From Desulfomicrobium sp. ZS1 (GTDB lineage: Bacteria > Desulfobacterota > Desulfovibrionia > Desulfovibrionales > Desulfomicrobiaceae): a DNA stretch of 64,000 bases. Below the pieces are notes generated by a model. The model had not been told where the DNA came from and ran no database searches. It saw only the letters and a list, made by a program, of their open reading frames with translations. Where the stretch lies: contig NZ_CP100351.1 in NCBI RefSeq assembly GCF_024204645.1, forward strand, positions 3,622,001 to 3,686,000. The letters run 5' to 3'. The first letter of the stretch is position 1, and each line of letters starts with the position of its first letter. A program made the translations under genes and the position numbers. Shown here in pieces: positions 10,448 through 31,466 of this stretch.

Positions 10448-10945
10448 ATGAGTCAATTTTTTAAACACTCCCATGCTCTAGTTGAGTCAGAGTCCATTGG
10501 TAAAGGTACAAAGATATGGGCTTTTGCTCATGTTTTGCCCGGGGCTCAAATTGGTGAAGACTGCAATATTTGCGACAATGTATTCATAGAGAATGATGTT
10601 ATCATTGGTGATCGTGTAACCATAAAGTGCGGAGTCCAACTCTGGGATGGGGTCAGAGTGGATGATGATGTTTTTATTGGTCCAAATGCTACCTTTACCA
10701 ACGACATTTTTCCAAGAAGCAAAGTCTATCCTGAAAAATTTCTTATAACACGGTTGAAAAATGGCTGTTCCATAGGTGCCAATGCAACAATATTATGCGG
10801 TATAGAAATCGGTGAACAGGCCATGGTTGGGGCTGGAGCGGTGGTGACTAAGGATGTCCCGCCTAAAACTCTCGTGTATGGCAACCCCGCCAGGATTCAA
10901 CGCTATCTTGATGATAAAGATGATGAATTTGATCAACCAAAATAA
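10448..10945 (+). CDS. fdtC: Sugar N-acetyltransferase with left-handed beta-helix, FdtC/WlbB-like
   Basis: 165 residues of hexapeptide repeats ([20 protein letters not shown] onward), ending in the conserved [19 protein letters not shown]. This is the shape of FdtC and WlbB, which transfer acetyl to the 3-amino group of nucleotide-linked 3-amino sugars. The partners fdtA (x2) and fdtB lie at 13.0-15.0 kb, separated from it by a block of dead insertion sequences, which supports dTDP-Fuc3NAc or Qui3NAc synthesis. A weak TTGACA-16-TACCTT promoter candidate is at 10,328-10,355. Low GC marks the start of the transferred block. Confidence 0.82.
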
Positions 10946-10949
10946 AGAG

Positions 10950-12216
10950 GTTTGTCGTCGTTTGTTGTGGAAATCTTGAAGCCACCACGACTTGAATCGG
11001 GGCCGCAATCAGGTAGACCATGGTGACGAAATTCTCCACGTTTCGGTTTCCCCTGGCTCTGGCCCTCGCTGCCTGGAACAGGCTATTGAACCCTTCAAGT
11101 CTCGCATTGGTGTGCAAGGAATGCCAACGATGAAGGACTCGCGGCAAATGCCTCTCAACGCTGGCCAATGCGCCGCGCGCGGGTTCCAAAAGGGGGCAGT
11201 CGGTTGCGTATTCGGTGGCAGGCTTGAGAAAATGGGGCATGCGCCACTTGGCGGCCTGCTTCGATTCGGCCCGCCGAGCCCAACGCAGAAGTTTTTTGAC
11301 ACGGCAGACCTTGGAGGTGGTAGCGCAGCCCTGCTTGACGAGATCCTGGAGAGCGTTCTCCTGATCCTCCGTGCGTATTATCTCGGCGTCCTTGAGCACG
11401 GCCCAACGGGGTGTAGTCCGGCAGCTTGGGCTGCCTAGCCTCAAGCTTTCTGACGTTATCATCGGCTTTGGTGAAGAGTTGGACGACATGAAACCAGTGG
11501 GCTCTCATCGAGGCGGACTTGAACTTCTGCTCGACGGCGGAGAGAAATGCAGGCGACATGTCACAGACGACCTCGACGATGTTTTTAGGACGACCTTCAT
11601 GGGCTTCAATGAACGCGCAGAACTTAGTCAGGCATTCCTTGTCATTGCCCGTAGTCGCGAAGATCACGGGTTTGTCGGAGCGGTCCAGGTCGATGAAGGC
11701 GGTGATGTAGTTGTGCCCACGCTTGGATGCGGTTTCATCCAGGCCGATGGCCTTGATGTTCTTCAAGTTCAGCGCAGTGATGGCTCTGGCCACATAGTGA
11801 TGGACGATGCGCCACAGGCGGGTATCCGCGATCGCGACGTGACGCGCTACGGCATTGACCGGCATCTCTCTGGCGGAGGCTCATGACCACTTGCTCAAAA
11901 AGCAGCGTAAGACGGCTGCCTTCCCTGGCCCATGGAGCTTCGACACGTCGGATCCCATGTTCGGACTGATCTTCGGCAGTCGGGCTATGAGGTACCAGTG
12001 ATACTGGAAGAAGTTGAGATGCCGCCACGTGAATTTCTTGAAGTCATGAGCCTTTCACGCGGCTCCGCACTAGGGGCAGGGATACAGCTCTCCGGGGGCG
12101 GCATCGATCTCCAGGTGGAGCATGGTTGGCATATGGTCGGTATCAAGACGTTGGCTCATAATTTTTCAGGGTGGCGTTAGGCCGAGGTCCAAGGCAAAGA
12201 TTTCTTCAGCTTGCAT
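10950..12216 (-). pseudogene. Decayed ISL3-family transposase
   Basis: Remnant of a DDE transposase of the ISL3 family. It starts at ATG 12,216 with GGAGG 5 bases upstream (MQAEEIFALDLGLTPP, then TGA in place of the expected Trp). It continues with a zinc-finger part broken by further stops near 12,070-12,090, APWAREGSRLTLLFE at about 11,920, and a frameshift near 11,880. The catalytic core IKAIGLDETASKRGHNY follows at about 11,740. Another frameshift at about 11,415 (one extra C in the run before RWAVLK) leads to the C-terminal HTNARLEGFNSLFQAARARARG at 11,050-11,110. At least three inactivating lesions. The low-coordinate end and the terminal inverted repeats could not be fixed. Confidence 0.85.
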
Positions 12217-19251: not shown

Positions 19252-19952
19252 TTTTATATTTTTAAATATTTTTTGGAATTTATATGAATTGTTGTAGACC
19301 AATCTCTTTTTTTATTCCTGCTTTAAATTGTGGCGGCGCGCAAAAAGTTGTTGTCAATCTAGCAAATGCACTTGTAGATCTTACTGATAATCAAATACAT
19401 GTTGTTCTTGCGCGATGTGAGGGTGAATTTCTTGCGGGCCTTCGTTCAGAGATTATAGTTTTTGATTTAAAGACAAAGCGTGCTTCAAAATCAATTTTTG
19501 CTCTAGCTAGATATTTGAAATCAGTGCGCCCGCATGTGATCGTATCTAGTATGAGTTATGTAAATGTAGTATGTATAATTGCTTCTTTTTTAGCAGGAAA
19601 GCCGTGTAAGGTTGTTGTGAGAGAGGATAGTGTTGTTCGTCGTCCTTCAGGCGGATTTGCTGATAAATCTATGTGTTTTTTGATTCAATTTCTAATGCGA
19701 CTATTGTACCCATACGCAAATTCAGTGGTGACAATTTCAGATTCTGTTTTAAAATCTATCTTGGATTCTAAAATTAAAGTTAAAAATAAAGTTTATGTTA
19801 TTGGAAATCCTGTGTGCGTCGATAGTTCTATTGAATCAAAACGCATAATAGACGATACTGCTGAGTTATCTTTGCCTGATTTTTTTATTTGTGCAATAGG
19901 TCGGCTTACCGATGCTAAAGGTTTTGATATTTTGCTTGATGCTTTTTCTAAA

Positions 19953-19958
19953 GTAAAA
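19953..19958. repeat. Target-site duplication, left copy
   Basis: GTAAAA directly before the left inverted repeat; identical to 21,641-21,646. IS1380 elements usually duplicate 4-5 bases, so one or two of the six matching bases may be chance. Confidence 0.85.
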
Positions 19959-19977
19959 CCTAAATCCGTGAAAAAGT
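19959..19977 (+). repeat. Left terminal inverted repeat of the IS1380 element
   Basis: 19 bases starting CCTAAATCCGTG. Pairs with 21,622-21,640 with two mismatches. Confidence 0.9.
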
Positions 19978-20096
19978 TGCATTGAATATACAGTTTTGAA
20001 ACATTTTACACTTGAAATAAATCAATGATATCGGTATATTGAACTTGCTTTTCCTGAATGATTTTTAGCACCCATTGGGTGCGACAGGAGTTTGCA

Positions 20097-21449
20097 ATGC
20101 TCATCACCGATATCAAACGAAACGAAGGAAACAACATTGGCCATGTCGGTCTGGCTCTGATTAGCGAGATGGCCAGGGTTTGCGGGCTGGATACACTGGT
20201 CGACCGTCTTGGGCCTGGAAAAGCTCCGCAGATCAAGGAGCGCGAAATTTTCCGCACATTGGTCGGCCTCATGTGCCAAGGCAAAACGGATTTCGACCAT
20301 GTCCGTGAATACTACGGCGACGATTTTTTCGCGACCAGCCTTGGCCTTGGACGCGTTCCTTCCGCCGAGATTTTGCGGCAACGGTTTCAGCGGATCGCCT
20401 TGGAAACTGACCTGGATGCCCAGTTGCCCCGTTGCTCGGTCGAACTGTGGAAGAAGACCGGAATGCAGCCTGAGATCATTGATATGACCAGGGACGACAA
20501 CAAGAAAGAGCACTGGGTGCGCCTTGATATCGACGTCAGCATTTTCGACAACGCCGACACCGAGAAGGAAGGTGCCAGCGCAGCGTACGACAAGAGATTC
20601 GGCTTCGCTCCGATCTTTGCTCATCTTGGTGGCGGCTGGATGGTCAACGGCAAGCTTCGTCCCGGATCGAGCCATTCCAGTTGCGAGGGCACGGATGAGT
20701 TCATCCTGGAGAGCCTCGGGTACGCCAAGTCCATGGTGGAAGCGAACGTTCTCGTGGTCGCCGACAGCGGATTTGACAGCAAGGAGCGTCTGGAGACGCT
20801 GTGCACGCAGTCGCGCACCGGCTTCATCATCAAGCACAATCTGCGCAGGGAACCGGTGACCGGCTGGCTCGCTACTGCCAAGGAGCACGCGCAGAAAGTA
20901 GAGAATTTCGCAACGTCCCGAGAAAAAGGCCGAATCTACCGAGGCTTCGTGATGCGTGAGCTTGGCAAGAAGAAAAGTCCGGTCCGCCAGATTTTCGAGG
21001 TCACGGAAGTGTTGAGCAAGGACGGTGTGTTCATGATGATTCCAGAGGTCCGCGTCTGCGTATTGTGGACTAACCTGGAATTTGATGCCGACCAGGCTTT
21101 GAAACTGTATCGCAAGCGGGGCACCAGCGAGCAGTATCACGGGGAATTCAAGACCGAGATGGACATGGAACGCCTGCCGTCGGGCAAGTTTGCCGTGAAT
21201 GCCGCCTTCCTGCGCTTGGGCATGCTGGTCTACAACATGCTTCGGGTAGCCTCCGTGGACTTGGTTGTGGCTCGGATGCTGGGACTGAAAAAAGCCAACC
21301 GCCGAAGAACCAAGACGGTCATGCGGAGCATGATGAGCATTTGCGCCCGGATCACCCGCCATGCACGCAAGGTAATCCTGCATGTCTCCTGCCCGGAGCC
21401 ATGGTTCAAGGTGGTCTCTGACCTGTTCTATCGTCTCAAGACGGCGTAA
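20097..21449 (+). CDS. IS1380-family transposase
   Basis: 450 residues, DDE transposase of the IS4-related group. VRLDIDVSIFDNAD carries the first Asp region, VLVVADSGFDSKERL the second, and YRKRGTSEQYHGEFKTEMDM the YREK-like region with the catalytic Glu. AGGAG lies 6 bases before the ATG at 20,097. No frameshift or stop; likely active. Confidence 0.95.
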   Translation: MLITDIKRNEGNNIGHVGLALISEMARVCGLDTLVDRLGPGKAPQIKEREIFRTLVGLMCQGKTDFDHVREYYGDDFFATSLGLGRVPSAEILRQRFQRIALETDLDAQLPRCSVELWKKTGMQPEIIDMTRDDNKKEHWVRLDIDVSIFDNADTEKEGASAAYDKRFGFAPIFAHLGGGWMVNGKLRPGSSHSSCEGTDEFILESLGYAKSMVEANVLVVADSGFDSKERLETLCTQSRTGFIIKHNLRREPVTGWLATAKEHAQKVENFATSREKGRIYRGFVMRELGKKKSPVRQIFEVTEVLSKDGVFMMIPEVRVCVLWTNLEFDADQALKLYRKRGTSEQYHGEFKTEMDMERLPSGKFAVNAAFLRLGMLVYNMLRVASVDLVVARMLGLKKANRRRTKTVMRSMMSICARITRHARKVILHVSCPEPWFKVVSDLFYRLKTA

Positions 21450-21621
21450 CGAGATGGTCATTAGGCTGCATTCCTAGGAGTAGTGCGTCTGAAAACTGCA
21501 AAAAGTCGGTTCTCGGAGCTTGCGAAGCGACAATTGTCCTTCAGTTGAAAATTTTCAGGTCGAAAGTCGCCTGAATTTTCGAAAAATATGGTTGAAATTT
21601 CGAGCCAACAACGTTGGCAAC

Positions 21622-21640
21622 ACTTATTCACGGATTCAGG
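21622..21640 (-). repeat. Right terminal inverted repeat of the IS1380 element
   Basis: Reads CCTGAATCCGTG on the minus strand; matches the left end with two mismatches over 19 bases. Confidence 0.9.
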
Positions 21641-21646
21641 GTAAAA
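21641..21646. repeat. Target-site duplication, right copy
   Basis: GTAAAA directly after the right inverted repeat, same as 19,953-19,958. Confidence 0.85.
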
Positions 21647-22111
21647 AACAGAAAACTTCATTTGGTAATTGTTGGTCAAGGTGAATTGCGGGATTTTTTG
21701 TTTCATAGATCCTGTGAGTTGGGCCTCGAAAGTAGGGTTCATCTTGTTGGCTATGTTAATAATCCCGTTTCAATACTACAGAAGGCACAAGTATTTGTTT
21801 TGTCATCACGTTGGGAAGGGTTTGGCATCGCGCTTGTTGAGGCTTTAGCCGTAGGTATTCCTATTGTATCTGTTGATTGTTTCGGTGCGCCTAGAGAAAT
21901 TTTAGAAAATGGCATTCATGGTCTACTTGTCCCAAGCGAAGATCCGATAGCTCTAGCTAAGGGAATAGATATGTCTCTGTATAATCCAGTAGGTACGCGT
22001 GAGGGGCGAATCAAAAGATCATTGGATTTTTCTCCAGATAAGATTGCTAGGTTATATTTAGATCAAGTTTTGCTGCCTATAAAAGATCCTTCCAAAGACT
22101 GCTCGCACTAA

Positions 22112-22530: not shown

Positions 22531-23646
22531 ATGTTTAGAAAGAGCAATGGGCGCACTATGATCGCTTCATGTCACATTATCTCTGGCCTACAAACCGGAG
22601 GGGCCGAACGCATGCTTGTTCGGCTTTTGGAGGGCCAGTCCAACGGCCAGGTTGTGATCTGTCTCGGGAATGACGGACCGCAGGGGAGTGCTATGCGCAA
22701 AATGGGGGTGCCTGTTTATGTGTTAGGGCATCGCATCTGGAAGCTGCTGAGTTTGCTTGCCCGTTTGCATCCTGAGGTGGTAGTGGGTTGGATGTACCAC
22801 GGGAACATCGTGGCAATGGTTATGGGTTGGCTTTGGCGCAAGCCGGTGGTCTGGAACGTGCGCCATTCCGTTAACGATTTGAGCCAGGAAAAGCCAAGTT
22901 TGCGATGGGTAATCAGGGTGGGAGCTTGGTGTTCTTTATGTCCACGAACTATTGTTTACAACAGTGTAGTGGCCGCCGAGCAGCATAACGCGCTTGGTTA
23001 TGCTGCGGCAAATGCGCGAGTTTTACCGAACGGTCTCGACACGAGCGCATACTGTCCCATTCCTGAAGCCCGCAAACAACTAGTCAGTGAACAGGGCTTG
23101 TCTGCGCAATCATTTATAATTGGACACTTGGCTAGATTTCATCCGATGAAAGACCATCTTGGCTTTTTAGACTCAGCCGCGCTTTTGGCTAAATCAGCCC
23201 CTGATGTACATTTTGTTTTGGCTGGTCGTGGCGTCGACAACTGCAATATTGAATTATTATCAGCGGTCAATCGGCTAGGGCTTTCTGGAAAAGTTCAGTT
23301 GCTTGGTGAGCGAGATGATGTTGCCCGTCTATTGTCAGCCTTTCATGTATTTGTTTTGTCGTCTGCCTGGGGAGAAGGTTTTCCCAATGTGCTTCTGGAG
23401 GCAATGGCATGTGGGGTGCCTGTTGTCACGACTGATGTAGGCGATGCCCGCTTTGTTGTTCAAAATATGGGAAAGGTGGTTCCTCCTGCAGATTCAAGGA
23501 CCTTGGCTGCGGCTATGAAAGAAATGTATGACATGGATAGAGCCCAATTGAGACGGCTTGGCTTGGGCGCGCGTCAGCGGGTGGTTGAGACGTTTGATAT
23601 TCGGGATGTGGTCCAAGCTTACCATGCCACATGGGAGGTTACATGA
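22531..23646 (+). CDS. Glycosyltransferase family 4
   Basis: 371 residues, GT-B fold. The acceptor-side glycine loop is in ISGLQTGGAERMLVRLLEG; GHLARFHPMKDHLGFLDSA begins the nucleotide-sugar domain; SSAWGEGFPNVLLEAMACG holds the E-x7-E motif. Cytoplasmic face, adds a sugar to the lipid-linked glycan. GC content is higher than in the block before it, so it may belong to the older part of the locus. An internal ATG at 22,558 is an alternative start. Confidence 0.9.
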   Translation: MFRKSNGRTMIASCHIISGLQTGGAERMLVRLLEGQSNGQVVICLGNDGPQGSAMRKMGVPVYVLGHRIWKLLSLLARLHPEVVVGWMYHGNIVAMVMGWLWRKPVVWNVRHSVNDLSQEKPSLRWVIRVGAWCSLCPRTIVYNSVVAAEQHNALGYAAANARVLPNGLDTSAYCPIPEARKQLVSEQGLSAQSFIIGHLARFHPMKDHLGFLDSAALLAKSAPDVHFVLAGRGVDNCNIELLSAVNRLGLSGKVQLLGERDDVARLLSAFHVFVLSSAWGEGFPNVLLEAMACGVPVVTTDVGDARFVVQNMGKVVPPADSRTLAAAMKEMYDMDRAQLRRLGLGARQRVVETFDIRDVVQAYHATWEVT

Positions 23647-24291
23647 CGCCCGAATACTTCTGCCGGCAGTATGGAAAAAACATGAACCGTGGGGAAACCC
23701 TCAACAATTGAGTGGTCCGAAGTTATCCGGCAGGTCAATGGTGCTAATGTAGTCATTTCTGAGATCGATGGATGGATCCTGCCTTTGTGATTGGTGTTGT
23801 TACGTCAGCGTGGATTTACAACGGTAATGAATTACGTTGGAGAAGATGGTAAGACTCTTCTTTATGGTGTGGAACGCATAACAACAGCGCGGAAAATTTT
23901 GTGACAGGTCTTGGATGTGGGATTAAGATTCATAGCAGGAGAGCGTTTTCGCCCACTGCCGAATGTTTCTTCCACAGACAATCTAGCATGGGTAGAGGCT
24001 GCGGTGCTAAGCTGGCTAATTCCGGCCTTTACCCATATCAACGTAGTGCTTCAAAAATGTTGAGATTACAATGTTGTTTTCTTAAGATAGCGCGGGCAGT
24101 TTTTGCACAAACTATTTTCATTGGTTCGACTTATCTCTGATTCGATCAAGTTGATGCACAGTTTTGTGATATTGTGTGCGTTTGGTAAATATTTTTGCGT
24201 GATGCAGTTTTTATAGGGATTTAAAAAAATGAAAAATTATACAAAGTATGTCTTGTTCTTCAAGCCAAGCTGCAAATAAAAAGAGTATATT
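23647..24291. other. Gene-poor stretch, probably a decayed gene
   Basis: 645 bases between two GT4 genes. Starting with an ATGA overlap at 23,643, a 22-codon frame (MTPEYFCRQYGKN) soon stops. Plus-strand reading shows several coding-like pieces interrupted by stops and frame changes, such as GFTTVMNYVGEDGKTLLYG at about 23,815 and AWVEAAVLSWLIPAFTHINV at about 23,985. I do not recognise the family. It looks like an eroded gene of the glycan locus and not like regulatory DNA. Confidence 0.5.
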
Positions 24292-25407
24292 TTGAAGATT
24301 CTTTATTTCATTAGTGAAGACTGGTATTTTTGTTCTCATCGTTTGGGATTGGCTGTTGAGGCAAAGCGTGCTGGTTATGAAGTTGTACTCGTTACACAGG
24401 TTGATTTGCATGAAAGGCAAATTGTTGATGCAGGAGTTCGATTAATAAATTTTCCTTTTTCTAGGCGCAGCTTAAGTATTTTAGAACTAATTTTTATTGT
24501 ATGTCGACTCATATCTATATATAAGAACGAACGCCCTGATATAGTTCATCATGTTGCGGTAAAGCCTTCGCTATGTGGAACTTTAGCCGCTCGAATTTGT
24601 GGGATTGGTAAAGTTGTAAATGCATTTGCTGGCTTAGGTTGGATTTTTAGTTCTTCTAATTGGATTGCTCGGATATTAAAATTTTTGGCGATCTTTGCCA
24701 TCCGGTTATTACTTTCGCGGTCACAAATTATTGTTCAAAATCAAGATGATAAATATTATGTTGAGCGTCTTGGCTGTCGTTCTGTTAATCTTATCCGTGG
24801 CTCGGGAATTGATCTCGACGTTTTTCCAGACACCCCCGAACCGACTGGGCAGGTTGTCGTTATATTAATCGCACGAATGCTCTTCGATAAAGGTGTTTGC
24901 GAGTACGTTAATGCTGCTCAAATTTTAAAGAATCGTGGTAGAAGTGTGCGATTTTTGTTGGTTGGCGCTCCAGATAATCAAAACCCAGCGTCTATCTCCC
25001 TATATAAACTTAATGACTGGAATGAAAGTGGTGTGGTCGAATGGCTTGGGCATCGTGACGATATTCCAAAACTGTTGGCCGAGAGTCATATTGTTTGTTT
25101 GCCTTCTTATCGGGAAGGTTTGCCCAAATCACTTCTCGAAGGCTTGGCCACTGGACGGCCTATAGTTACTACCGATGTTCCTGGATGTCGCGAAACCGTT
25201 CGTGAGGGGGTTAATGGGTTTCTAGTTCCTCCCAAGGACGCCGTGGCCTTGGCGGATGCGTTAGAAAAACTTGTTTTGGACGCTGCGTTGCGCAAATCAA
25301 TGGGGCACGAATCCAGACTTATCGCGGTTTCTGAATTTTCCTCGGAGCGCATCGTTGCGGAAACTCTAGCGGTGTACACTTCGCTGATCGGAACCCACGT
25401 CGCCTGA
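24292..25407 (+). CDS. Glycosyltransferase family 4
   Basis: 371 residues, starting with TTG at 24,292 behind AAGAG; the protein begins MKILYFISEDWYFCSHRLGL, as in PglA/CapM-like transferases. VVILIARMLFDKGVCEYV opens the donor domain and PSYREGLPKSLLEGLATG holds E-x7-E. It lies 41 bases before the oligosaccharyltransferase gene, which suggests it helps to build the lipid-linked oligosaccharide used by that enzyme. Sugar specificity unknown. Confidence 0.9.
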   Translation: MKILYFISEDWYFCSHRLGLAVEAKRAGYEVVLVTQVDLHERQIVDAGVRLINFPFSRRSLSILELIFIVCRLISIYKNERPDIVHHVAVKPSLCGTLAARICGIGKVVNAFAGLGWIFSSSNWIARILKFLAIFAIRLLLSRSQIIVQNQDDKYYVERLGCRSVNLIRGSGIDLDVFPDTPEPTGQVVVILIARMLFDKGVCEYVNAAQILKNRGRSVRFLLVGAPDNQNPASISLYKLNDWNESGVVEWLGHRDDIPKLLAESHIVCLPSYREGLPKSLLEGLATGRPIVTTDVPGCRETVREGVNGFLVPPKDAVALADALEKLVLDAALRKSMGHESRLIAVSEFSSERIVAETLAVYTSLIGTHVA

Positions 25408-25448
25408 CTTGGTGTTTGTCAATTTTTTATATCTTCTCTGGAATCCCG

Positions 25449-27566
25449 ATGAACAGACCTGCACGTTTTGCCCTTTCCCTTGCCGGTGAATTCTGGCTGG
25501 CTTTGCTACTTGTGGTCTTCACAACTGTAGCCATTCGTCTAGCAGAAGTGCCCTTTTGGCAGAATCAGTCGTTTTTAGTAGACGGTGAGCGCCTCATGGC
25601 TACGCATGATGCATATACATGGCTGGCCGGGGTAAAAGATCTCGGTCGGCATGCTAACCGTGCGTTTACTTTGTTATTGAGGGGCATCTCAGAGCTTGGG
25701 TTTCCTCCCGCCGCTGTCGGGTTCTGGTCACCGATACTGTTCGTTCCTTTGTTGGCATTGCCAATATGTTTACTGTCCCGTTTTTTGCGGTTGCCTGAAG
25801 GGGGCCTCGTTTTTGGGATTTTAGTCACGTCCGGTCTGGGATTCCTGGTACGTACCCGGCTTGGTTTTTGCGATACGGATGTCATAAATTTGTTGTTCCC
25901 GATTTCCATGTACTGCTGTCTTGTCATCTGGTTGGTGATGCTCACGCGCGTAGGATCGTCTGAAGGTGCAGTAGATAGCGACAGATGGAGTTTGGCTTTG
26001 GCTTTTGGGGCCGGCGTGAGTGGTGGTTTGGCTTTGTATATATATCCTGGCAGCGCAAGCATATTGCTTCCGGCTTTGGGCATGGCCTGTATTGTCGGGG
26101 TCTTTTCCGCCAAAGATAAAGGAAGATTCTATTTTTGGGCAGGTTTACTCTTGATACTTGGAACGGCTTTCGGCGGATGGCTCGGGATGGCTCTGTCAGT
26201 TCTTGGAGTGCTGGGGTGTTTGCAGCGTCGTAGGCCGATCCCTCCAATGGCTCAGATCGCAATGCTCATCACGCTGGCTGTAGTTATTTTGTATCTGGGT
26301 GATCTGGATGGGATATTTCATAAATTGCTGCGCAAGATTTATGTTTATACCAAGATCGCAACCCCGGAAATGATGAATAACGCCACTGGAATGAAACTTC
26401 CCGATATCGCTCAGAGCGTGCGTGAAGCCCAAAATCTTGATTGGGGGCAACTCGGGCCGCGTTTGGGGGGTAATTGGGGCGTTTTTGTTCTGGGTTTGTT
26501 GGGTTTTGGTTTTGTTTGCTGGCGTCGTCCTGCGCTTTTTGTGTTTTTACCCTTTCTTGCCCTCGGTATTGCCAGTGTTAAGCTTGGCAACAGGTTCGCC
26601 ATGTACGGCACCGTGGGTATCGGTATGGGGCTAGGCTTGGGGCTGAGTGAATTCATGAGCGTGCTCAGTCAGAGCCAGGGCCGGCGCTGGATCGCGCAGT
26701 TGGTTTTGGCATGCGTGGTCTTGTGGCCCTCTGCCGTATTCATGCAGGAGGTGAGGCCCGCGCCGGTGCTGCCCAAGATCTACGCCGAGACATTTCTGGA
26801 GTTGCGTGCAAAGACACCGCCCGATTCCCTGCTTTGGCAATGGTGGGACTATGGTTACGCCGGGCAGTACTATGCCGAAAGGGCGACGTTTGGAGATGGT
26901 GGCCGGCAGTCGGGGAAGTGGCTCTATCCTCTTGCGCGGGTACACAGCGCGACCTCTCCGCGGCAAGCGAGTCAGCTGATTCGGTATTTCGGGCAAGCCA
27001 TGCTCGAAGACGGCTCGAAATACAAAGCCGACGTGCGTAAGGCGTTGTTTTCGGGCAATCCCGTCGCTGATATTCAAAAAATGAAAGTGGACCAGGCGCA
27101 AACATTTCTGTCCGAATTAATTGTCGATGACACGAATTGGCCCACGAGCGTTTCAAACTATTTCATTGTTTCCTGGGAAAACCTGCGTCTGGCCTCCTGG
27201 ATAAGCTACTATGGAAACTGGGACATTGCTGCTGGAACCAGTTCTCCCGGAAAGATTCAGCAGGTGCGTGGCGAGGTACGCATGGATTCGGCTGCCGGTA
27301 CGCTTGTAGTTGGCGGCAAGTCCACACTGCTTGATTCCATGGATGTGGTTGACGAATCCGGGACAAAACATTTTGAATGGCCCAACGGGACGGGGATGCA
27401 CGTTGTTGTCAATCAGATGTCGCGGCAGGTGTTTCTGATGGATGCCAAGATATACCGGTCCATGATGGTGCAGATGCTCTTGCGCCCAGCCTTGGATTTT
27501 GCCGAGGAATTCACTCTGGTTGTGGATAACTCTCCGTGGGCCAGAGCATATAAGGTGACGAATTAG
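25449..27566 (+). CDS. pglB: STT3/PglB-family oligosaccharyltransferase
   Basis: About 705 residues. Transfers a lipid-linked oligosaccharide en bloc to Asn of periplasmic proteins. Visible: Asp54 in ATHDAYTW (first external loop), Asp142-Thr-Asp144 in FCDTDVINLLFP (the DxD of the active site), about 11-13 membrane helices over residues 10-440, and WWDYGY at 465-470 followed by GDGG, the acceptor-sequon binding motif. These match Asp56, Asp154/156 and WWDYG of Campylobacter PglB, and overall length is similar. An earlier TTG at 25,416 is possible; ATG 25,449 follows GGA. Next genes (epimerase, WecA-like, PglF-like) overlap or nearly touch, so this is one operon. Desulfovibrio PglB activity is known from the literature. 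Confidence 0.93.
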   Translation: MNRPARFALSLAGEFWLALLLVVFTTVAIRLAEVPFWQNQSFLVDGERLMATHDAYTWLAGVKDLGRHANRAFTLLLRGISELGFPPAAVGFWSPILFVPLLALPICLLSRFLRLPEGGLVFGILVTSGLGFLVRTRLGFCDTDVINLLFPISMYCCLVIWLVMLTRVGSSEGAVDSDRWSLALAFGAGVSGGLALYIYPGSASILLPALGMACIVGVFSAKDKGRFYFWAGLLLILGTAFGGWLGMALSVLGVLGCLQRRRPIPPMAQIAMLITLAVVILYLGDLDGIFHKLLRKIYVYTKIATPEMMNNATGMKLPDIAQSVREAQNLDWGQLGPRLGGNWGVFVLGLLGFGFVCWRRPALFVFLPFLALGIASVKLGNRFAMYGTVGIGMGLGLGLSEFMSVLSQSQGRRWIAQLVLACVVLWPSAVFMQEVRPAPVLPKIYAETFLELRAKTPPDSLLWQWWDYGYAGQYYAERATFGDGGRQSGKWLYPLARVHSATSPRQASQLIRYFGQAMLEDGSKYKADVRKALFSGNPVADIQKMKVDQAQTFLSELIVDDTNWPTSVSNYFIVSWENLRLASWISYYGNWDIAAGTSSPGKIQQVRGEVRMDSAAGTLVVGGKSTLLDSMDVVDESGTKHFEWPNGTGMHVVVNQMSRQVFLMDAKIYRSMMVQMLLRPALDFAEEFTLVVDNSPWARAYKVTN

Positions 27567-27568
27567 CC

Positions 27569-28540
27569 ATGGACCAACTTGGAACTCGCGCCCTGGTCAC
27601 CGGCGCGTCGGGGTTTATCGGTCGCGCCTTGTGCCGGGATCTGACAGATAGGGGCTGGGAGATCACAGCCATGCTGCGCAAGCCGCAGGTCGGCCCGTGG
27701 CGGCAGGTGCTGGAAGGTGCTCTGAACCGGGATGAGATCGATCCTCAAAACCTTGAGGGCGTGGACACGATCTTTCATGTGGCTGGCAAGGCCCATACAC
27801 GCGCAAGAAACGCCGCCGAGAATGCTGAATATGAAGCCGTGCATGTGCACGGCACGCGTTCACTGCTTCGGGCCGCAAGGCAGGCCGGCGTGCGCGCCTG
27901 CGTGTTGCTGAGTTCAGTCAAGGCCATGGGCGAGGGAGGGGAAGATGTCTGGGACGAGGGCACGCCATGTTCCCCGCAGAATCCATACGGTGTCACCAAG
28001 CTTGCGGCCGAACGCATCGTGCTTGAAGAGATCCCGTTACCCTGTTCGGTGGTCTTGCGGCCCGCGCTTGTTTACGGCGCCGGGAGCAAGGGTAATCTTG
28101 ATCTGATGATACGTGCGGTGCGCAAGGGCTTCTTTCCGGCCATCGCTTTCCCCCCCAACAGGCGCTCCATGATTCATGTTCAGGATGTCGTGCAGGCCTG
28201 TCTGCTGGCGGCGACGCATCCTGCGGCATGTGGGCAGGTTTACATCCTGACCGATGGCGAGGAGTACTCCACCAATGAGATGCTGGCCTGGATTAACGAG
28301 GCCCTGGACATAAAGCCCGGACCGTCCGTTCCCTATGCCCTGCTGCGGGCCGGCGCTGCTCTCGGGGACATGCTGGAGCGCCTTGGGATACAAGCCCCCC
28401 TAAACGGTGACAGGCTGAGCAAACTGTCGGGTTCCGCGCGTTATGCCAGCGCCAAAATTCACCGTGAACTGGGCTTCGACCCGGCCTGGGACCTGCGGCG
28501 GGGTATTTATGAGATGGCCGAAGATTTGAGGCGACAATGA
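27569..28540 (+). CDS. NAD-dependent sugar epimerase/dehydratase (GalE/WbpV-like SDR)
   Basis: 323 residues, extended short-chain dehydrogenase. VTGASGFIGRALCRDL binds NAD; LLSSVKAMGEG and PYGVTKLAAERI supply Ser, Tyr and Lys. Best fit is the 4-epimerase/reductase group found beside WbpL-like transferases (WbpV, WbjF, making UDP-QuiNAc or UDP-FucNAc). It would work on the product of the WbpM-like dehydratase at 29,517, giving the first sugar that the WecA-like enzyme puts on the lipid. Starts 2 bases after pglB; overlaps the next gene by 4. Confidence 0.85.
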   Translation: MDQLGTRALVTGASGFIGRALCRDLTDRGWEITAMLRKPQVGPWRQVLEGALNRDEIDPQNLEGVDTIFHVAGKAHTRARNAAENAEYEAVHVHGTRSLLRAARQAGVRACVLLSSVKAMGEGGEDVWDEGTPCSPQNPYGVTKLAAERIVLEEIPLPCSVVLRPALVYGAGSKGNLDLMIRAVRKGFFPAIAFPPNRRSMIHVQDVVQACLLAATHPAACGQVYILTDGEEYSTNEMLAWINEALDIKPGPSVPYALLRAGAALGDMLERLGIQAPLNGDRLSKLSGSARYASAKIHRELGFDPAWDLRRGIYEMAEDLRRQ

Positions 28541-29517
28541 CGGGTGCGGCACTGTATTTTTTTGCGGGCCTTGTGCTGAGCATCCCGTGTTGCATACTAG
28601 TGCCTCGATATCTGACCCGTGCTGGCTTTCTGGACCTGCCCGGCGAACGAAGCTCCCATGTCCGGCCCACCCCGAAAGGCGGGGGCGTAGGGCTGGTTCT
28701 TGGCTTTGCTTGGGCCGCCATCGTTGTCGGGCTCACTCCACTTTTCTGGCTTCCGCTCGTAGCATTGGCAACATTAAGCTTTGTCAATGATTTGCACAGC
28801 ATCTCCGCTGGGGTGCGTCTTGTCGCCCAGTTCATGGGCGCTCTTCTTGTTTTGGGCGGTGCGTTGTGGACGGGGCTTGCTAACTGGCCTGTATTCCTGC
28901 TCTTGCCCGCCCTTTTCTTCGTGGTTGCCACGACCAACTGCTACAATTTCATGGACGGAATCAACGGTCTGGCCAGCATCACCGCGGTGGTCGCCTTTGT
29001 CAGCCTATTGGTTTTCGGTGGCGCGGCTGAAACCCCTTTGTTCTATCCAATGGTGGCGGTCATGGGCGCGCTGCTAGGCTTCCTGCCCTTCAATCTGCCC
29101 CGGGCCAGGCTGTTCATGGGTGATGTGGGCAGTATCTTTTTGGGCTTTATGTTTGCGACATCCGTGTGCCTGATGGCTCGATCGTGGACAGAATTTTTCA
29201 TTTTTGCCTCCTTCCTCTTTCCATTTTATGCCGACGAGGCCGTGACAGTGGTCGAGCGCTTGTGGCGCAGGGAATCCCTTCTTGCGCCGCATCGGAGGCA
29301 TCTGTATCAATTTCTGGTCAATGAGTGCGGTATTGCGCACTGGAAGGTGAGTACGGCGTACGGAGTGATCCAGATTTTCGTGGCGGCGCTGGTGGTGATC
29401 GGGGGCAGGCATGGATTTTGGTCTGTGTTGGGTATTGATGTTGCCTTGCTGACAATGTGGGCGGCGGCACACTATTTTCTCAAGCGAAAATTTTATTTCG
29501 AACACAAGGATGGGTGA
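28537..29517 (+). CDS. WecA/WbpL-type undecaprenyl-phosphate sugar-1-phosphate transferase
   Basis: 326 residues with about 10 membrane helices. Starts glycan synthesis by moving a HexNAc-1-phosphate from UDP to undecaprenyl phosphate. NCYNFMDGINGLAS and LFMGDVGSIFLGF are the family catalytic loops, and HRRHLYQFL is the C-terminal HxH-type loop. The usual DD pair in loop 2 reads Asn-Asp (SFVNDLHSIS), which is unusual. The order epimerase-WbpL-WbpM is the same as at the end of Pseudomonas O-antigen clusters. It could serve both O-antigen and the glycoprotein glycan. Confidence 0.9.
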   Translation: MTGAALYFFAGLVLSIPCCILVPRYLTRAGFLDLPGERSSHVRPTPKGGGVGLVLGFAWAAIVVGLTPLFWLPLVALATLSFVNDLHSISAGVRLVAQFMGALLVLGGALWTGLANWPVFLLLPALFFVVATTNCYNFMDGINGLASITAVVAFVSLLVFGGAAETPLFYPMVAVMGALLGFLPFNLPRARLFMGDVGSIFLGFMFATSVCLMARSWTEFFIFASFLFPFYADEAVTVVERLWRRESLLAPHRRHLYQFLVNECGIAHWKVSTAYGVIQIFVAALVVIGGRHGFWSVLGIDVALLTMWAAAHYFLKRKFYFEHKDG

Positions 29518-31466
29518 TGGAATTATCTCGAATTTTCAACTTGTTGCTGAAAAAGAGAAATTTATTCCTCATGCTCGCAGGAGAATCCGCACTTTTTGGC
29601 CTGGCGTTGCTTATATCTTATTCCCTTCGCTTCGAATTTGATATTCCCGATTCTTTTTTGAGGCAAATGTTCTCCCTTCTGCCCGTAGCAGTGGCCTTGA
29701 AGATCAGTTTTTTCTGGATGACCGGTCTCTATCGTGGCATGTGGCGCTACACCGGACTTCCCGACCTCTGGAAGATTGCGCGGGCCGTGTTCATGGCTGA
29801 AGCGGCGATGATTTTTTATGTGGCGTATGCATTCCATTTCAAGGGATACCCCCGCTCGGTCTTTATCCTGGATGCGCTTTTGGCGTTTGTTTTCGCCTGT
29901 GGAGCGCGGGTGCTTATCCGTTCCCTATACGAGATCAGCTCAAAGCCCGGTGAGTGGCGGAATGTGTTTTTACCGGATAATTTTTGTGTGGCGCCCTCAG
30001 GCCTGCGGGTTCTCGTCATCGGCGCGGACGACGAGGGCGCACGACTCGCCAAGGAAATTCTGGATGCTCGTGACTGCGGGTTGCGGTTGGCAGGCTTTGT
30101 GGACGATGATCCGGCCCGAATCGGCCGCAGGATTCATGGCTTGCCGGTTTACGGCCCCCTTGCCGACCTTCCGCGCATTGCGGCCATGGCCCGCGCCCGG
30201 GAAGTGCTGGTCAGTGCCGGGCAGCAAGGGGCGCGGCTGCGTCAGATCATGAAGGCTTGCGAGGCCGCGCAGCTCAGCATCAAGAAATTGCCCGCCCTGG
30301 CGGATATCGCCAGTGGCAAGGTTTCGATCAAGTCCTTGCGCGACGTTCGCTACGAAGACTTGCTTGGCCGTGAAGAGGTGCGTCTCGATGAAGACGGAAT
30401 CAAGGGCTATCTTCGCGACAAGATCGTGTTGGTGACAGGGGCCGGTGGCTCCATCGGTTCGGAACTCTGCCGTCAGATCATCCGATTTGAGCCTCGCCTG
30501 ATGGTCCTTTTTGATGCGGGCGAAGAAAATTTGTATTCCATTGAAATGGAATTACTGCATCAACACGGTTTTACACGCTATGTCACGGTGCTGGGGCAGG
30601 TGCAGGATGCGTCTTTGGTCGATGCGGTTTTCAGGACGCATTCACCGCAGGTCGTATTCCATGCCGCCGCCTACAAGCATGTGCCCATGCTTGAATGCAA
30701 TCCCTGGCAGGCCGTGACCAACAACGTCGTCGGCTCCCGCACTGTCATGGACGCTTCGGCCAGGTATGGGGCCGAACGCTTTGTTCTCGTCTCCACCGAC
30801 AAGGCCGTGCGTCCGACAAATGTCATGGGCGCATCCAAGCGTGTTGCGGAACTCATCATGCACGGATACTCCGGCGGTTCGACCAAGTTCATGGCTGTCC
30901 GGTTTGGCAATGTACTTGGTTCGTCAGGTTCGGTTATCCCTCTTTTCAGAGCTCAAATTGAACGCGGCGGGCCGATTACAGTTACCGATAAGGAGGTGAC
31001 CCGCTATTTCATGACCATCCCGGAGGCGTCGCAGCTCATCGTGCAAGCAGGCGCATTGGGGCGGGGCGGGGAAATCTTCATTCTGAAAATGGGGCAGCCC
31101 GTGCGCATTGCCGATCTCGCGCGGGATCTGATTGTCCTTTCGGGCAAGGATCCGGCAGAGATCAAGATCAAGTTCACGGGGCTGCGCCCCGGTGAGAAGC
31201 TCTACGAGGAGCTGATCACCGAGGGCGAGGGGATAGTGGAAACCGGACATGAAAAGATCATGGTGCTGGCTCCAAGCACAATTAATGGGCTTTCGGACGA
31301 AGAATTCCACTCCCGGATGGAAGAGCTGATCGGCGAATTGGAAAGCAGGGGGGCGCAATTCAGGGGTGAGGAGATCAAAATGATCCTGGGCCGCATTGTC
31401 CCTGAATATTGCGCTGACGGAAATTGCAACTCAGCCGTATGCGGCTGCGGACTGACCGCGGAGTAA
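29517..31466 (+). CDS. Membrane-bound UDP-GlcNAc 4,6-dehydratase, WbpM/PglF/FlaA1 family
   Basis: 649 residues. Four N-terminal membrane helices (about residues 15-130), a first nucleotide-binding domain (VLVIGADDEGARLAKEIL), then the catalytic SDR domain with VTGAGGSIGSELCRQI. The catalytic Tyr is replaced by Met in PTNVMGASKR, as in WbpM and PglF. Converts UDP-GlcNAc to UDP-4-keto-6-deoxy-GlcNAc, the entry to QuiNAc, FucNAc or bacillosamine. Start overlaps the previous stop (TGATG). A Cys-rich C-terminal tail (CADGNCNSAVCGCG) is odd and may bind metal. Confidence 0.92.
   Translation: MELSRIFNLLLKKRNLFLMLAGESALFGLALLISYSLRFEFDIPDSFLRQMFSLLPVAVALKISFFWMTGLYRGMWRYTGLPDLWKIARAVFMAEAAMIFYVAYAFHFKGYPRSVFILDALLAFVFACGARVLIRSLYEISSKPGEWRNVFLPDNFCVAPSGLRVLVIGADDEGARLAKEILDARDCGLRLAGFVDDDPARIGRRIHGLPVYGPLADLPRIAAMARAREVLVSAGQQGARLRQIMKACEAAQLSIKKLPALADIASGKVSIKSLRDVRYEDLLGREEVRLDEDGIKGYLRDKIVLVTGAGGSIGSELCRQIIRFEPRLMVLFDAGEENLYSIEMELLHQHGFTRYVTVLGQVQDASLVDAVFRTHSPQVVFHAAAYKHVPMLECNPWQAVTNNVVGSRTVMDASARYGAERFVLVSTDKAVRPTNVMGASKRVAELIMHGYSGGSTKFMAVRFGNVLGSSGSVIPLFRAQIERGGPITVTDKEVTRYFMTIPEASQLIVQAGALGRGGEIFILKMGQPVRIADLARDLIVLSGKDPAEIKIKFTGLRPGEKLYEELITEGEGIVETGHEKIMVLAPSTINGLSDEEFHSRMEELIGELESRGAQFRGEEIKMILGRIVPEYCADGNCNSAVCGCGLTAE

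Follow-up and report, generated by a model that had tools for sequence, protein, structure and literature searches.

Members of the IS1380 family carry one transposase gene between terminal inverted repeats, are about 1.5-2 kb long and have ends starting with CC. Some insertion sequences, including the IS1380 member ISEcp1 with its resistance genes, activate adjacent genes. Another member, IS1247, is 1,672 bp long and has short inverted ends in which 13 of 16 positions match. The target duplication is 5 bp for both IS1247 (PMC3281130, Table 2) and ISEcp1 (PMC2887853). In Acinetobacter baumannii, an insertion sequence of another kind, ISAba13, breaks the surface-glycan glycosyltransferase gene itrA and is flanked by intact duplications, in this case of 9 bp; its excision was seen there (PMC9038732). 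Closer to the organism studied here, Desulfovibrio PglB enzymes are active, and HmcA of D. gigas bears an N-linked glycan (PMC4894442).

The window, which is the whole stretch of 64,000 nucleotides that was analysed from Desulfomicrobium sp. ZS1, contains a complete insertion sequence of 1,682 bp (19959..21640, + strand), similar in size to IS1247. As delimited by the sequence and by comparison of its copies, the element begins with CCT (19959) and finishes with AGG (21640). Its inverted ends are imperfect: the left terminal repeat CCTAAATCCGTGAAAAAGT (19959..19977, + strand) agrees at 17 of 19 positions with the right one, which reads inward as CCTGAATCCGTGAATAAGT (21622..21640, - strand). 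Direct reading gives the left junction as ...TCTAAA-GTAAAA followed by the element start CCTAAATCCGTGAAAAAGTTG, and the right junction as the element end CACTTATTCACGGATTCAGG followed by GTAAAA-AACAGAAAA..., with the 6-bp target duplication GTAAAA occupying 19953..19958 on the left and 21641..21646 on the right. Between the ends, an uninterrupted frame (20058..21449, + strand) encodes a transposase of 463 amino acids, which scores 291 bits against the NCBIfam model NF033539 (IS1380) over residues 22-444 (cut-off 180 bits) and covers nearly the full length of Pfam DDE_Tnp_1_4. The direct reading and this score bear out the earlier note, which had described an IS1380 insertion with inverted ends, GTAAAA on both sides up to 21646 and an intact transposase. 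The length, the CCT...AGG ends and the identical borders of all five copies in the genome fit the IS1380 layout, while the duplications of 6-7 bp depart from the length of about 5 bp, which is a typical value of the family and not a defining one; membership is based on the transposase. The element is a so far nameless member of the IS1380 family, or an isoform of the Pseudodesulfovibrio profundus element described below. No relatives of the transposase were found among virus contigs.

The insertion divides a glycosyltransferase gene of family GT4 (19284-22111). The 5' part (19284..19958, + strand; 225 codons) encodes the N-terminal domain and the start of the C-terminal domain, while the 3' part (21647..22111, + strand) encodes the rest of the latter. 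In the interrupted state, the frame of the 5' part continues for 8 codons inside the element up to a stop at 19985, and the 3' part belongs to a short frame of 165 amino acids opening at a TTG (21614) within the element. When the flanks are joined with a single GTAAAA, they form one continuous reading frame, exactly 379 residues long, with the junction ...DAFSKVK|NRKLHLVIV..., so the claim that the gene is interrupted at a fully reconstructable site holds. This joined frame unites the GT-B domains, Glyco_transf_4 from the 5' part and Glycos_transf_1 from the 3' part, and is presumably the gene as it stood before the insertion. Distant intact GT4 homologues from the order can be aligned across the junction, and their length differs by about one residue. 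In the C-terminal domain, the junction follows an apparent helix (ILLDAFSKV) and precedes an apparent strand (LHLVIVGQG). Because it falls inside this domain, most of the domain is missing from the 5' half and its first part from the 3' half, which makes it unlikely that either fragment works as an enzyme. Among solved structures, the joined protein comes closest to 6eji (E = 1.4e-22, residues 6-339), which is PglH (WlaC) of Campylobacter jejuni, whose pathway also ends in an STT3/PglB oligosaccharyltransferase. However, the PglH equivalog model gives the 5' fragment no more than 47 bits (cut-off 600), far too low to assign a substrate to this glycosyltransferase.

Combined, these features make it very probable that an active IS1380-family element recently broke the GT4 gene of a strain-specific cassette and left a stable loss-of-function mutation. 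In the proposed sequence of events, an active element whose identical copies are spreading through this Desulfovibrionales genome would make a staggered cut at the 6-bp target GTAAAA, which would be copied on both sides of the element; the insertion would split the GT4 C-terminal domain between helix and strand, and the resulting stable loss of function would leave one glycan truncated or changed. The anatomy of the element, its copy number and identity, its target duplications and the broken frame were observed directly, whereas loss of the enzyme activity and the change of the glycan would follow from them. Loss of one sugar from the glycan, as suggested by the earlier note, is a reasonable inference from the loss of the gene, and one of the other GT4 genes nearby (22531-23646 or 24292-25407) could compensate for the broken one. 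An insertion of this kind is an ordinary and well-understood type of mutation, here caused by a new, still nameless member of a known family. If the strain is cultured, it offers a natural mutant for learning what this glycosyltransferase adds; otherwise the event is routine genome dynamics.

One alternative would be that the element acts mainly as a portable promoter for the downstream GT4 gene at 22531-23646, in the manner of ISEcp1. The ability of ISEcp1 and some other insertion sequences to activate neighbouring genes speaks for this, but here the next gene lies beyond the rest of the glycosyltransferase gene and a gap of 419 bp, and the right end of the element holds no promoter-like site on the + strand. 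Across the region, 10 promoter-like sites were counted against a shuffled expectation of 9.2, so nothing in the search for an outward promoter rises above chance. We therefore consider a promoter role very improbable.

The broken gene is situated in a locus devoted to glycan synthesis. To its left are a GDP-mannose dehydratase gene (8050), two FdtA-type genes (13000 and 13440), and genes for a DegT aminotransferase (13847), a hexapeptide acyltransferase (14949), a Wzx-type flippase (15557), a GT2 glycosyltransferase (17082) and a pyruvyl transferase (18037). To its right, the two further GT4 genes are followed by genes for an STT3/PglB-type oligosaccharyltransferase (25416-27566), an epimerase (27569), a WecA/MraY-like phosphosugar transferase (28537) and a CapD/PglF-like dehydratase (29457). 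The oligosaccharyltransferase carries a WWDYG motif and scores 64 bits against STT3-PglB_core; its PDB matches are PglB oligosaccharyltransferases, while its 116 bits against NF050801 are under the cut-off of 1,300. No polymerase gene was recognised in a non-exhaustive look through the open reading frames of the locus, and no Rfam RNA family was found in 8-32 kb. Judging by gene order, the glycan of the cassette may be protein-linked and possibly used by the neighbouring oligosaccharyltransferase. The insertion represents a recent knock-out within a glycan cassette that is variable and lies next to an oligosaccharyltransferase gene.

The two sides of this locus differ in their distribution. 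When 19.9 kb of the locus was used as the query against 15 other genomes of the genus, no DNA match to the cassette of about 14-24.2 kb was found except for the element and a 97-bp repeat. From about 24.3 kb rightwards (26.3 kb in most genomes), the DNA is common to other genomes of the genus, and the stretch from the oligosaccharyltransferase through the epimerase and WecA-like genes to the CapD-like gene is shared by several of them. The G+C content is 35% at 14.9-19.3 kb compared with 57% in the conserved part, and the AT-rich cassette is probably strain-specific and recently gained by lateral transfer. The 97-bp repeat (23641-23738) starts where the GT4 gene 22531-23646 ends. Many counterparts of it, mostly at 85-94% identity, occur in other genomes of the genus; in one of these genomes (G015, L074 and L075) it adjoins a 424-bp repeat, and it looks like a remnant of a mobile element.

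With the cassette missing from the 15 other genomes of the genus, the comparison of glycans with sister strains, which the earlier note had envisaged, finds no counterpart. The same is true of the uninterrupted 379-residue gene expected in relatives. No orthologue close enough to count as an allele was found in a collection of genome contigs (best identity 29%), in 100 relatives (best 37% over the full length) or in 395 genomes of the phylum (best 41%), leaving only intact homologues of 37-41% identity as the closest.

These searches also bear on the suggestion of phase-like switching, in which precise exit of the element would be frequent enough to maintain a mixture of broken and intact alleles and to vary the glycan. 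The duplication and both halves of the gene are intact, so precise loss of the element would restore the frame. The exit of piggyBac is scarless. A distant relationship links the IS1380 transposases to piggyBac (PMC10140906), and capsule switching through scarless excision of ISAba13 from itrA provides a precedent (PMC9038732). However, a restorable frame is common to every insertion sequence with intact duplications and is not specific evidence, and no excised allele was seen in the genomes examined, among which the cassette is unique to this one. In addition, the ISAba13 reversion is very rare without selection, with no revertants among 2.8 x 10^5 colonies in rich medium (PMC9038732), and the four other copies of the present element (one inside a kinase gene, one close to the end of a GT4 gene and two in intergenic DNA) point to general spread rather than to a dedicated site. 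Switching is thus highly unlikely and finds no support here beyond the general possibility shared by any such element. A more specific form of the idea, that an element of an IS1380 subgroup with 6-7-bp instead of 5-bp cuts leaves precisely and often enough to toggle a protein-linked or surface glycan of a sulfate reducer, is given the same very small chance.

A recent insertion is in line with the state of the element elsewhere in the genome. Counting its copies, as the earlier note had proposed, revealed five full-length ones in the single contig of 3,867,579 bp, all 100% identical across 1,682 bp. Zero differences in 5 x 1,682 bp limit the divergence to roughly 3/8,410 (about 4e-4) substitutions per site and copy as a 95% upper bound, which holds unless gene conversion kept the copies alike; their identity could partly reflect this process. 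Each copy is flanked by its own perfect duplication of 6 or 7 bp (GTAAAA, TTCCAG, TTGTAA, GTATTAA and CTGGAA). Since a 6-bp flank match would occur by chance with a probability of only about 5e-4 even at the local base composition, and all five copies carry one of 6 or 7 bp, chance duplication is excluded. Recent spread of identical copies implies that the element is active.

The positions of the other copies support this picture. One identical copy (C1:250782-252463) interrupts a PAS/histidine-kinase gene in frame. Homologous DNA of 72-76% identity spans this site uninterrupted in at least eight genomes of the genus, three of which were aligned at the junction and are gapless there. This shows that the element enters intact genes, and the kinase insertion is probably an event in this lineage, absent from the other species examined. 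Another identical copy (C1:2363844-2365525) is located in a second GT4 gene, ten codons ahead of the stop, where its effect may be slight, and the remaining two copies occupy AT-rich regions away from clear genes. Together with the GT4 halves, neither of which has acquired further stops or frameshifts and which are still flanked by identical GTAAAA copies, the five identical copies make a recent insertion well supported, in agreement with the earlier description of the event as fresh. That the insertion is instead old and fixed, with gene conversion alone keeping the five copies identical, is conceivable in principle, and a 226-bp remnant of 81% identity in the same genome does indicate a long presence of the element family in the lineage, but the undecayed halves, the perfect duplications at all five copies and the absence of the kinase insertion from other species of the genus leave this only a slim chance.

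The length of the target duplication was further examined in the genome of a sister species (G002). A closely related element is inserted there at least seven times, in most cases at contig ends (contigs C9-C61). One of these insertions was whole on its contig and six were rejoined through matching contig ends, giving the duplications ATACGA, AAAGAA, ATAATA, GTTTTAA, GATATA, TGATAC and TTTTGT. Taking the five insertions of the present genome and these seven together, the duplication is 6 bp in 10 of 12 cases and 7 bp in the other two, compared with a published length of 5 bp in both IS1247 and ISEcp1. This difference is small but consistent and deserves to be noted as a trait of this IS1380 subgroup. 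In 9 of the 12 duplications the second base is T, a possible weak preference that is too weak to claim a target-site consensus.

Among 348 genomes of the order, 22 contain matches to the element, mostly weak or partial. Long copies of at least 90% identity are present in three of them (G002, G001 and G296). The closest described relative is located on plasmid NZ_LT907976.1 of Pseudodesulfovibrio profundus (27948-29629); judging by identical plasmid coordinates, the G296 copy is this same one. It is also 1,682 bp long, is 96.6% identical at the DNA level over the full length, has the same ends and is annotated as an IS1380 family transposase, but unlike the element described here it is plasmid-borne and comes from another family of the order. 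The copy is probably rearranged, its two flanks not matching. A search of plasmids returned this single 96.6% copy, while other plasmid IS1380 transposases are at most about 40% identical. A genome of another family (G077) has right-end pieces of 98% identity at contig ends, which together with the long copies of at least 90% identity indicates that the element moves between families of Desulfovibrionales. The locus thus records an actively spreading IS1380 element in this order, with consistent duplications of 6-7 bp. Traces of a different transposase were also noticed in the window: between an acetyltransferase gene and the FdtA genes, the minus strand at 10863-11886 contains frames resembling the remains of a broken transposase, which by eye appear ISL3-like.
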